A stretch of 64,000 nucleotides of DNA from Synechococcus sp. Nb3U1 (GTDB lineage: Bacteria > Cyanobacteriota > Cyanobacteriia > Thermostichales > Thermostichaceae). The DNA lies in contig NZ_JAKFYQ010000001.1 of the NCBI RefSeq assembly GCF_021533835.1, positions 1,646,079-1,710,078 of the forward strand. The letters run 5' to 3'. Below the pieces are notes generated by a model that did no database searches, was not told the DNA's origin, and saw only the letters and a program-made list of their open reading frames with translations. Made by a program: the position numbers and the translations under genes. Positions 39,966 to 44,602 of this stretch are shown in pieces; the stretch's first letter is position 1; each line of letters starts with the position of its first letter.

Positions 39966-40057
39966 CCGCACTCAACTCTCTTTGCCGCCATTGTCGCTTA
40001 GGCCGGCGGGAATAGGTACTGAATCGCACTTAAAAATGGTGCGGAAAAATGCTGCAG

Positions 40058-40822
40058 TTAGTGCCGATGCACCAACGTGGTACTGGCCTGATCGGTGGGC
40101 AGGAGCAGAACCTCGCTGATATTTACGTGTGGGGGGCGGGTTGCCGCAAATACCACTACTTCCGCCACATCCATCGCCGTAAGGGGAGTGACACCTTGGT
40201 ATACGGCAGCAGCTCGGGATGAGTCGCCATGAAACCTCACTTCGCTAAACTCGGTTTCCACCATGCCCGGCTGGATCTCGGTGACGCGAATCGGGGTGCC
40301 CAATAGGTCCAGTTTTAAGCCTTCTGAAATGGCCCGCACCGCCGCTTTGGAAGCACAGTACACATTGCCGCCAGGATAGGTTTGCCGCCCGGCAATGGAG
40401 CCAATATTGACTACATGGCCCCGGCCCCGTTCCACCATGCCCGGCAACACAGCCCGGGTGACGTAGAGCAGGCCCTTCAGGTTGGTATCGATCATCTCTT
40501 CCCAGTCTTGTATCACCCCTTTGTGCAACTTATCCAGGCCACGACTCAAGCCAGCATTATTGATCAAGATGTCAATGGCAGCCCATTCCGGTGGCAACGT
40601 CTGTACGGCCCGCTGTACCTCTGCACGATCCCGCACATCCAGAGCCAATAGGTAGGGTGGGTTCCCGAAGGCTTGCTCCAAATCTAAGGCCAACTCCTGC
40701 AACCGATCTTGGCGACGCGCCGCCAGAATGAGTCTGGCTCCGGAACGGGCAAAGAGGGTGGCACAGGCTGCCCCGATGCCACTGCTGGCTCCAGTAATCA
40801 GGATGACAGGGGTTGAACTCAT
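40058..40822 (-). CDS. short-chain dehydrogenase/reductase (YdfG-like)
   Basis: The 254-residue SDR has the nucleotide-binding GASSGIG, NNAGLSRG, the catalytic serine in NIGSIAG and the catalytic YCASKAA (Tyr-x3-Lys). EIQPGMVETEFSEVRFHGD is the signature of the YdfG/serine-dehydrogenase-like NADP-dependent branch, which oxidises 3-hydroxy acids such as serine or 3-hydroxypropionate. The true substrate is open. ATG at 40822 is the family start; the open frame continues upstream without similarity. Confidence 0.88.
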   Translation of the reverse strand: MSSTPVILITGASSGIGAACATLFARSGARLILAARRQDRLQELALDLEQAFGNPPYLLALDVRDRAEVQRAVQTLPPEWAAIDILINNAGLSRGLDKLHKGVIQDWEEMIDTNLKGLLYVTRAVLPGMVERGRGHVVNIGSIAGRQTYPGGNVYCASKAAVRAISEGLKLDLLGTPIRVTEIQPGMVETEFSEVRFHGDSSRAAAVYQGVTPLTAMDVAEVVVFAATRPPHVNISEVLLLPTDQASTTLVHRH

Positions 40823-41046
40823 GAGTCCTCGCAAAGCATTCACATGGCCAATCTTACGAGAAAGAATCCGATTCACTCTTGCGCTGACTTGTACTGACCA
40901 AAAGCGGTTCTGGTTGTCTTTCTCATCTTGAGCCAAGTCAAAATGCTACCCAACAGCGAGAGGGTGATATAACCAAGGCAACGATGCTTCAAACAATGGG
41001 GCAGAACATAGCAGCATTTAGCCCATCTCACGGGGAACTCTAGAGT

Positions 41047-42879
41047 ATGCTGGCCCTCACCCAATCGGAATGGCAGGATCCCCCCCTGAATCAGGGAGAC
41101 ATTCTGCTGGTGGATGATGTGTTGGAAAATTTGCAGATCTTGTCGGCGATGCTGGAGGCAGAGGGCTACGAAGTCCGGCAGGCACTGAATGGGCAGATGG
41201 CCCTGATGGGCATTGAAGCAGAACTTCCGGATTTGATCCTCCTGGATGTGAGGATGCCAGGCCTGGACGGCTATACAGTGTGTCAATAGTTGAAGTCCCA
41301 TCCCCGTACCGCTGGGATCCCGATTATCTTCATCAGTGCTCTCGATGCCCTAGAAGACAAGTTACAAGCCTTTGCCGTTGGTGGTGTGGACTACATCACC
41401 AAACCCTTCCAGGAAGCAGAGGTGCTAGCGCGGGTACGAACTCAATTGACGTTATTGCAGTTACGTCGCCACCTGGAGAGAGCCCACCAGGATCTGTTGG
41501 AGATCAATGGCTTTCTCGAAGACCGAGTACGAGAGCGAACCGCCCAACTGCGTCACCGCATTCTCTTTGATACCCTGACCGGGTTACCCAGCCGTGAGAA
41601 TCTGATAGGGCAGTTGCAGGAAGCCCTAGAACGTTTGCGCTCTCAACCTGAGGTAAGATTCGCCCTGCTGCTGCTGGACTGTGATCGCTTCGGCCTGATC
41701 AACAGTTCCTTGGGCTATGGGTTGGGGGACCAGATGCTCTCAGCTATTGGACAACGGCTAAGCCAGTTTGCGCAAACTCAGCAGGGGTTTGTCGCCCGCT
41801 TCGGAGAAGATGATTTTTGTCTGCTCTTGAATCAGATCTCCTCCCCTCAGGAGGCAGAGGCACAAGCTAGGGCAGTGTTGAGGCTGCTGCGGGATCCCTT
41901 TCAGATCGACCTCTATGAAGTGTATCTGACCGCCAGCATTGGCATTGTCCTCGGCGATTCTCTCTATGCCCAGCCCCAAGATTTGCTGCGCGATGCCGAT
42001 ACCGCGTTGCGGCAAGCCAAACACTCTGGCCGAGGGAGCTTTCATCTGTTCGATCCGGGGTTGCACACGGCAGCGATTCAGCGGTTACGCCTAGAAAATG
42101 ATCTGCGGCGGGCGCTGGATCGGCAGGAGTTTCAGGTGTTTTATCAGCCGATCGTCAACCTGAAACAGGGCAGAATCGCCGCCTTTGAAGCCTTGATCCG
42201 CTGGCAACACCCTGAGCGCGGTTGGGTCTCGCCGACAGAGTTCATTCCCTGCATGGAAGAAACCGGTCTGATTATTCCAGTGGGTTTGCAAGTGTTGCAC
42301 ATGGCCTGTAGCCAGGTTTGGCGATGGCAACGGCAACTGGAGACGCTTTGGGCAGCCAGAGGGGCGGATCCCTTGGTGATCAGCGTCAATCTCTCCATCT
42401 GTCAGTTCAGCTACCCAACTCTGCTGGAGGATGTGGATCGGGTGCTCTCTCGCAGTGGATTGGATCCCGGTTATCTGAAGCTGGAGATCACCGAAAGCGT
42501 GATTATGGAGAACACGCAAGCTGCCCAACGATTGGTGGAACAACTGCAGGCCCGTCGCATCCACATCAGTCTCGACGACTTTGGTACGGGCTACTCTTCC
42601 CTCAGCTATTTACAACACTTCCCGGTGGATAGCGTGAAGATTGACCGTTCCTTTGTCAAAGACATGGGGCCCAATGGAGAAAATGCTCAGATCGCAACTG
42701 CTGTCATCGAGCTGGGCCATGCCTTGGGGATGTCGGTGATTGCGGAGGGAATCGATTCACCCCTGCAGGTGGAAGTTCTGCAAGCTTTGAACTGCGAATA
42801 CGGTTAAGGCTATTATTTCAGCCCTCCGCTGACCCCTGAACAGGCTTGGGCATTACTAGAGCGGGATCCCTGTTGGTAA
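41047..42879 (+). pseudogene. REC-GGDEF-EAL gene broken by two in-frame stops
   Basis: One continuous frame encodes a response-regulator receiver (DILLVDDVLENLQ, phospho-acceptor in LLDVRMPG, TKPF), a GGDEF domain with the degenerate motif GEDDF and an EAL domain (FEALIRW, DDFGTGYSS). It is interrupted by TAG at 41287-41289, after CAA, within the receiver, and by TAA at 42805-42807 shortly before the natural end. Both lie where glutamine is expected (VCQ*LKSH and CEYG*GYYFSPPL), so each can arise by a single C-to-T change. Reading goes on cleanly to TAA at 42877. A TTG follows the first stop at once, so a receiver-less product from 41290 is possible. The GGDEF site is probably inactive and the EAL phosphodiesterase motif intact. 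Confidence 0.88.
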
Positions 42880-42897
42880 GAGCCGGATTGCTCTGAA

Positions 42898-43902
42898 TCA
42901 GGATCCTTGGGTTGCTTTTTCGCCAGAACGCTCCAGCAATTTCACACAGGCATACAAGGTATCCAAATGGGGGGTAGGCACCGCCACCAAACGGCCTAAC
43001 TCTGTGATGGCCCCCACAATCGTTTCGATCTCCGTTGGTCGCCCCAGCTCGATATCCTGCAGCATGGAGGTGCGATGGGATCCCACCCGGGTGGCATTCC
43101 CCAACCGCTCATCCAAAGACATGGGCAAGCGGATCCCGAGGGCCTTTGCCACCGTCTCTGTTTCTTGCATCACCGCTCGGATCAAGTTGCGGGTGGGGGG
43201 GTAGTGGGCCATCTCATCTTGGGCGGCACGGGTGAGAGCACTGATCGGGTTGAAGGCAGAGTTGCCCCACAGTTTCTGCCAGATCTCGGTGCGAATTTGG
43301 GAAGTGAGGGTTGTGTGGAGCTGCGCTTGTTCAAAGAGTTGGGCCAGCATCCTCAAGCGCCCGGACAGGGATCCATCCGGTTCACCGAGAATGTAGCGTC
43401 CTCCCCCCGTATGCAGGAGCATCCCTGGCTCCACCAACTGCACGGCGATGTACACTACACAGCCAATCACACGTTCGATCGGCAGATGGGCAGCAATCAC
43501 CCCATCCGGATCCACGGCTGCCAGCGGATGCCCTTCAAACTCACCCCCATGTCGACGGAAATACCACCAGGGAATGCCATTCTGGGCGATCACGATGGGA
43601 GTCTCCGGCCCACACAGGGATCCCAACTGGGGGGCAAGCTCTGGCAAACTATGGGCCTTAACGGTGACAATCACCCAATCCTGCAGGCCTAGTGTCGTCA
43701 GATCGTCAGTGGCTGTTAGGCGTTCAACCCAAGTTTGCTGGGATCCCTCTTGGCCATAGCTGCTGATCAATTTCAATCCCTGGGTGCGGATCGCTTGGAG
43801 ATGGGATCCCCTTGCCACCAAGCTGACGGTCAACCCTGCTTGAGCCAAACGAATGGCTAGGTAGCCCCCTACTGCTCCAGCACCAACAATGCAAATCTTC
43901 AT
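42898..43902 (-). CDS. panE: 2-dehydropantoate 2-reductase (ketopantoate reductase family)
   Basis: The 334-residue protein opens with the Rossmann motif KICIVGAGAVGGYLAIRLAQAG and contains WQKLWGNSAFNPISALT, where the family's Asn-Ser pair binds substrate, and the lysine of VKAH (IVTVKAHSLPELAPQL). It reduces 2-dehydropantoate to pantoate for coenzyme A synthesis, using NADPH. Cyanobacteria may carry several ApbA/PanE paralogues, so the exact substrate is not certain. Convergent with the broken REC-GGDEF-EAL gene. Confidence 0.88.
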   Translation of the reverse strand: MKICIVGAGAVGGYLAIRLAQAGLTVSLVARGSHLQAIRTQGLKLISSYGQEGSQQTWVERLTATDDLTTLGLQDWVIVTVKAHSLPELAPQLGSLCGPETPIVIAQNGIPWWYFRRHGGEFEGHPLAAVDPDGVIAAHLPIERVIGCVVYIAVQLVEPGMLLHTGGGRYILGEPDGSLSGRLRMLAQLFEQAQLHTTLTSQIRTEIWQKLWGNSAFNPISALTRAAQDEMAHYPPTRNLIRAVMQETETVAKALGIRLPMSLDERLGNATRVGSHRTSMLQDIELGRPTEIETIVGAITELGRLVAVPTPHLDTLYACVKLLERSGEKATQGS

Positions 43903-43960
43903 GGAGCTATTATCGCCTTAGGGGAGACACGGGGCCAACAGGAAGACAACCAAATCCAAA

Positions 43961-43989
43961 AAGGATCCACCCTAATAAGGATCCACCCT
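43961..43989. repeat. 13-bp duplication separated by AAT
   Basis: AAGGATCCACCCT is found at 43961-43973 and 43977-43989, with AAT between; the unit is 16 bp. Confidence 0.85.
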
Positions 43990-44000
43990 GTTGATTTCTC

Positions 44001-44022
44001 TTATTCCTCGGTTATTCCTCGG
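44001..44022. repeat. 11-bp tandem duplication across the petM stop
   Basis: TTATTCCTCGG occurs twice in succession; the second copy contains the petM stop codon (read on the minus strand). Confidence 0.9.
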
Positions 44023-44122
44023 CCCCACCCTGGGTCACCCGCAGGATCCCATATCCCAGCGCCAAGCCCACCAGGGTCAGCACAATGCAAAGTCCGGCAG
44101 TGGTGAAGATCTCGCTGGCCAT
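44012..44122 (-). CDS. petM: cytochrome b6f complex subunit PetM
   Basis: This 36-residue frame, too short for usual gene calling, reads [20 protein letters not shown] and on to [14 protein letters not shown]. It is one transmembrane helix with a short N-terminus, and [13 protein letters not shown] matches PetM (subunit VII) as I know it from cyanobacteria and plastids. PetM stabilises the b6f dimer. The start is ATG at 44122. An 11-bp duplication covers the stop, and an 8-bp one (TCCTTAAA, 44127-44142) lies directly upstream of the start. Confidence 0.82.
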
Positions 44123-44281
44123 AGCTTCCTTAAATCCTTAAATGAGCAATCTTACGGTGCCTTCTCAGAATATCGGATCTTGAGGCTAGCGCATTCGGAT
44201 CGCCTGCATAACCCCAAACCCCGTCCTCCAGGAGAAACGACTTCCTTACCCCAGAGTTGATGGAATCTGGCGGATGCCCCC

Positions 44282-44313
44282 TATAATGAAAGCAATTTAC
44301 AAGTCTTTACTGG
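44282..44313 (+). promoter_or_regulatory. psbD upstream promoter -10 and HLR1-like repeat
   Basis: TATAAT at 44282-44287 is a consensus -10; TTGATG lies upstream with a long 19-bp gap. TTTACAAG (44296-44303) and TTTACTGG (44306-44313), two bases apart, form a direct repeat in the HLR1 pattern of RpaB sites. The position, at or just after the expected start of transcription and about 290 bp before the gene, would give a long leader. The rest of the 480-bp gap 44123-44602 shows no gene. Confidence 0.5.
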
Positions 44314-44602
44314 CGTAGGCTGAATTGTAATGCCTGAACCTGTAGAGCCTGCTTAGTAAGTTCAAGGTGGCCCACTTGGCCATTGCGAGTTCTGGATCCC
44401 TGTCGGGTGAGAGCCGCATAAGTCAGGATCCTTAGTCCAAGGCGCTCCTGCAAGGCCCTTTCCCGGATGGAAGTTCAGAAAACTGAGGCAGAGGATCCTT
44501 GAGTTGAGTCTTTATACCTAGGCTCCGGTCTTGCTTTGATGAAGCAAACTTTGTAGTTTCATTAACGTCCTCATCATTTAGATGTTTTTAGGAGTAGTCC
44601 AG

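Follow-up and report, generated by a model that had tools for sequence, protein, structure and literature searches.

The question raised by this locus is whether a signaling gene interrupted by two stop codons is dead, misread, or still able to give a protein. The window, which is the whole stretch of DNA analyzed, spans 64,000 nucleotides of the Synechococcus sp. Nb3U1 genome. On its forward strand, positions 41047-42879 hold a frame for a response regulator with receiver (REC), GGDEF, and EAL domains. Most probably the gene once encoded a PleD-VieA-type response regulator (REC-GGDEF-EAL), restricted to its lineage, and is now a nonsense pseudogene of fairly recent origin that is undergoing ordinary decay.

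The gene frame and its two internal stops

The frame starts with an ATG and contains exactly two internal stops, TAG at 41287-41289 (residue 81) and TAA at 42805-42807 (residue 587), ahead of the terminal TAA at 42877-42879. When the frame is read through, Pfam finds nearly the whole profile of each of three domains. These are the receiver domain at residues 19-131 (41101-41439; PF00072, E 1.3e-27), the GGDEF domain at residues 174-330 (41566-42036; PF00990, 2.2e-36), and the EAL domain at residues 351-594 (42097-42828; PF00563, 5.5e-75). The first stop cuts the receiver and the second cuts the EAL domain. Splitting the frame at the stops leaves a partial receiver 5' of the first stop and the receiver remainder, GGDEF, and most of EAL 3' of it. 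Because the three profile matches are nearly complete on read-through, no frameshift is required, and the two stops are the sole breaks in the frame. Translation and Pfam therefore both agree with the original prediction, in which frame and domain order were intact except at these two codons.

Full-length homologs of up to 51.5% identity are found, and the codon-position GC of the frame (0.641/0.382/0.626) is similar to that of the other long frames in the window; for both reasons 41047-42879 is taken as a real gene frame. The order REC, GGDEF, EAL, seen by Pfam and in the full-length homologs, makes the gene a member of the REC-GGDEF-EAL (PleD-VieA) response regulators by descent. Its premature stops, set against the intact frames of its relatives, give it the form of a nonsense pseudogene. 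The sequence collections searched yielded no close intact ortholog; their best full-length homologs reach 51.5% identity. A search of viral_contigs gave one weak match, to the receiver end.

Residues replaced by the stops

Homologs were picked by similarity to the query; the 60 loci given yielded 46 full-length frames, of which 39 were kept for alignment. At the column of the second stop, all 39 homologs have glutamine, and all 39 have glycine at the next residue. The column of the first stop is variable, with Arg in 16, Lys in 8, Gln in 6, Ser and His in 2 each, and Trp, Cys, Leu, Thr, and Ala once each. The earlier claim that both stops had replaced CAG or CAA thus holds for the second. At the first, glutamine is a plausible guess, because a single transition turns CAG into TAG, and is not the commonest residue there.

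A PDB search aligned query positions 119-248 with positions 266-395 of the BlrP1 chain, a range of equal length on both sides, which puts the glutamine at query position 240 on chain position 387. The 413-residue chain is presumed to be offset by 8 residues from the native protein, so that chain position 387 would be Gln379. Judged from this alignment range, the glutamine of residue 587 appears to be the counterpart of BlrP1 Gln379. PMC3989770 lists that residue among those that are strongly conserved in active EAL domains and take a direct part in binding the substrate. An active EAL phosphodiesterase has a complete EAL domain with its active-site residues in one product; here the TAA ends the frame at residue 586.

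State of the remaining protein sequence

The receiver motifs LLVDD, LLDVRMP, and TKPF are kept, as are most EAL motifs (EALIRW, EITES, DDFGTGY, and KIDRSF). Decay is slight, because most active-site motifs are kept. Among near-invariant columns (at least 97% conserved), 4 of 53 deviate (N182S, I553V, E570D, and Q587stop) and 34 of the 39 homologs have fewer than 4 deviations, a weak test because homologs chosen for similarity to the query favor near-consensus sequences. The excess shrinks at a looser threshold of at least 90%, where 6 of 96 columns deviate and 29 of 39 homologs have fewer. Together, these counts point to at most a slight relaxation of constraint outside the stops.

The GGDEF motif reads GEDDF at residues 253-257 (41803-41817), as had been described. 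The homologs have Gly at position 254 in 32 of 39 and Glu at position 256 in 34 of 39. Two other GTP-site columns are also altered: Asn 182, present in 38 of 39 homologs, is Ser (N182S), and Lys 216, present in 29 of 39, is Gly (K216G). With these changes the GTP (cyclase) site looks degenerate. Active diguanylate cyclases carry a GGDEF or GGEEF signature, and GEDDF is neither.

The locus in related genomes

The gene lies in a lineage-specific segment, 40874-42926, flanked by an SDR gene on one side and a ketopantoate-reductase-like gene on the other. Positions 40000-44500 were compared by blastn with the matching loci in five other genomes of the genus (Thermostichus-like; G001-G005). Homology with the sister genome G005 ends at 40873 and resumes at 42927, and 12 nt there replace the 2,053-base segment. 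The gene is missing between these flanks in all five genomes searched. The spacer is short in G002, G003, and G004; in G001 it is about 2 kb and holds an IS605-like element, recognized by eye, without a REC-GGDEF-EAL gene. Around 2361200-2363180 of G001 contig C1, tnpA- and TnpB-like frames were seen by eye, and an apparent repeat of the 3' end of the ketopantoate-reductase gene adjoins them. Insertion of a mobile element carrying the gene was considered and rejected: no repeats of 12 nt or longer are present at the borders of the 40874-42926 segment, and the element in G001 lacks the gene.

The octamer GGGATCCC occurs 89 times in the whole window (1-64000), a mean of 2.5 in every 1833 bases, and 3 times in the gene. 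The HIP1 octamer GCGATCGC is absent from the gene and occurs once in the window. According to PMC4390886, GGGATCCC is the most frequent octamer in Synechococcus JA-3-3Ab and JA-2-3B. The GGGATCCC-rich, GCGATCGC-poor composition of the window is the HIP1-derivative pattern reported for these hot-spring Synechococcus JA strains.

Codon usage, GGATCC density, and GGGATCCC density of the segment are all native; it has therefore probably long been resident in this or a close lineage. The gene tree places the gene beside one distant row, G014 (89/99), on long branches. The native codon usage and GGGATCCC density and the lack of the HIP1 octamer in the gene lend no support to a recent arrival from a different kind of cyanobacterium. 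The history of the segment would be either a gain within the clade or repeated loss. Absent from five genomes of the genus, the segment is dispensable.

Nonsense decay as the preferred reading

Young decay is the best reading, as first proposed. It is favored by a frame that is gene-like except for the two stops, by the loss of an invariant glutamine at the second, by the deviating near-invariant columns, by the dispensability of the segment, by the tRNA, release-factor, and domain counts given below, and by the decay of other c-di-GMP genes. The motifs that are mostly kept and the constraint on either side of the stop in an EAL gene of G005 weigh against it. A first nonsense mutation, probably a C-to-T change, would have inactivated a regulator that was dispensable and restricted to its lineage; the other stop would have followed once constraint was gone, with no indel so far. 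The first stop truncates the receiver, as predicted, and would leave an 80-residue receiver fragment, while translation from any restart would break off within the EAL active site. Before its inactivation, the gene probably encoded an EAL phosphodiesterase or a regulator that binds c-di-GMP, perhaps with a cyclase site that was already weak.

Simple mutation models, which assume an indel rate of 0.03-0.1 of substitutions, were used to ask how unusual such a pattern is. About 4-5% of single changes in the frame create a stop, and 23-50% of nonsense changes arise through CAA or CAG. Given two disabling changes, both are nonsense with a probability of 0.09-0.42, so the absence of frameshifts needs no special cause.

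The leading alternative, improbable in our judgment, is that the cell carries an intact gene and that sequencing or assembly errors account for one or both stops. The good preservation of the gene apart from the stops, with no frameshift, would suit such errors. Against them stands the quality of the assembly, which totals 3.49 Mb in 4 contigs and is rated 99.89% complete. Internal stops were also counted among domain matches in this genome, a count that is blind to frameshifts. The present gene is the only interrupted one of 70 REC matches (0 of the other 69), and none of 98 ABC matches is interrupted, the ABC search having scored 150 of 161 candidates. This assembly therefore contains few wrong stops, and a gene with two of them would be unlikely. 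The present gene is again the only interrupted one of 9 EAL matches, and none of 11 GGDEF matches has an internal stop. Among the 150 matches listed over 20 genomes, at least 4 have internal stops, the present gene included.

Slightly less probable still is a shortened GGDEF-EAL protein without a working receiver, made from TTG 41290 or a later start and perhaps acting as a c-di-GMP binder. The original prediction had pointed to the TTG directly after the first stop, which is indeed there, and from it a frame of 505 codons is open from 41290 to 42804. Later starts at GTG 41422 and GTG 42136 have upstream 5/6 matches to AGGAGG, better than the 4/6 of the gene's own ATG, but the Shine-Dalgarno-like match of TTG 41290 itself is only 3/6. 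Moreover, any such product would end before the invariant substrate-binding glutamine and lack 23 further residues, so that catalysis and probably folding would fail, and its GTP site is degenerate as well. The unregulated EAL protein once suggested is thus a weak proposal. An unregulated EAL phosphodiesterase from this gene is unlikely, because the second stop removes the active-site glutamine and the last 23 residues.

Far less credible is readthrough, in which the stops would be read as glutamine by tRNA-Gln(UUG) acting as a near-cognate, or by a suppressor that escaped detection, to give a full-length protein. In its favor, the second stop lies at a glutamine site, and an EAL gene of the sister genome G005 has a CAG-to-TAG change with dN/dS of about 0.07 on either side. 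A search of the present genome found 40 tRNAs, with anticodons assigned by ARAGORN. None of the 40 has a stop-reading anticodon (CUA or UUA), nor does any of the 40 found in G005, and the one tRNA-Gln of the present genome has the anticodon TTG. Both sets are incomplete, because tRNA-Ile(GAT) and tRNA-Ala(TGC) are absent from the 40 of each genome; that of the present genome may lack rRNA-operon or intron-bearing tRNAs. The two missing tRNAs suggest that rRNA-operon stretches are perhaps missing or masked in both genomes.

Further evidence against readthrough comes from the release factors. The RF1-like frame (PAT, GGQ) is open over 366 codons, with no loss or alteration, and RF1 is the factor that terminates at both TAG and TAA. 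The RF2-like frame (SPF, GGQ) is also open; PAT is presumed to mark RF1 and SPF to mark RF2. The uninterrupted state of the other REC and ABC matches likewise weighs against readthrough, and any loss would be compounded where a single message has two stops to pass. These observations speak against the idea that the stops are tolerated.

A wider version, to which we give hardly any credence, holds that glutamine-to-stop changes silence c-di-GMP phosphodiesterase genes of the genus yet preserve them as readable alleles, from which low-level readthrough yields a little full-length protein. If it were true, a second case would be the G005 EAL gene, in which the CAG-to-TAG change has sequence under undiminished constraint on either side. 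Genome-wide recoding of TAG and TAA as Gln is rejected, given that no stop-reading tRNA was among the 40 found, both release-factor frames are open, and the domain counts hold no other stops.

Other broken c-di-GMP genes in the genus

Decay of a c-di-GMP gene is not confined to this locus. On the minus strand of contig C1 of the present genome, a sensor-like N-terminus, a GGDEF domain with an intact motif (935782-936243), and an EAL domain (934991-935713) lie end to end in three frames. They are probably one gene with two frameshifts and a second c-di-GMP pseudogene of this genome; alternatively, they are three overlapping genes. Both domains (C1:935782 and C1:934991) were scored as open in the internal-stop counts.

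The stand-alone EAL gene of G005 at C1:78346-79026 (minus strand) has an in-frame TAG where its ortholog in the present genome, C1:1031981, has CAG. Its dN/dS against the ortholog is 0.078 before the stop and 0.067 after it. Four other EAL pairs were compared, of which three gave 0.03-0.093 and one was saturated. This stop is either very recent or tolerated; no stop-reading tRNA was among the 40 found in G005. Another EAL gene of G005, at C12:19985-20690 (minus strand), is split into two frames by a frameshift, and the similar gene C1:345709 of the present genome is open. In these two genomes, c-di-GMP genes broken by stops or by frameshifts are no rarity.

The number of EAL matches is 9 in the present genome (G000), 7 in G005 (including two halves of one frameshifted gene), and 1, 1, 1, and 0 in the others. 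GGDEF matches across the same six genomes number 11, 8, 4, 4, 4, and 3. The uneven EAL content fits repeated loss or gain and does not in itself show selection. Other broken genes in the window were also sought by codon usage; that scan was discarded, because it failed to pick up the known stops and its four reported sites are all antisense to long frames.

In itself, another young pseudogene is of little weight. It fits an easily testable pattern, namely uneven EAL content together with several broken c-di-GMP genes in related hot-spring-type cyanobacteria. Tables of gene presence would overcount working phosphodiesterases here.

Comparison with known systems

The PleD-VieA class (REC-GGDEF-EAL) has open frames in many cyanobacteria. 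The present gene shares its domain order over the full length, at up to 51.5% identity, but differs in its two in-frame stops and its degenerate GGDEF motif. Table 5 of PMC9953108 gives this class a score of 0 for every one of its six Thermostichus strains. The terms pseudogene, GGDEF, and c-di-GMP do not occur in the accessible text of PMC11456837.

Stop-codon reassignment, with TAG and TAA read as Gln, resembles the present case in that the second stop replaces a glutamine. Unlike such systems, this genome has no suppressor tRNA among those seen, its release-factor frames are open, and its other REC and ABC genes are free of stops.

Young bacterial nonsense pseudogenes are the remaining comparison. 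The present gene differs from them in having two stops and no frameshift, a combination to which simple models give a probability of 0.09-0.42. It shares with them premature stops in a gene-like frame, patchy presence in relatives, and flanking genes that are open.
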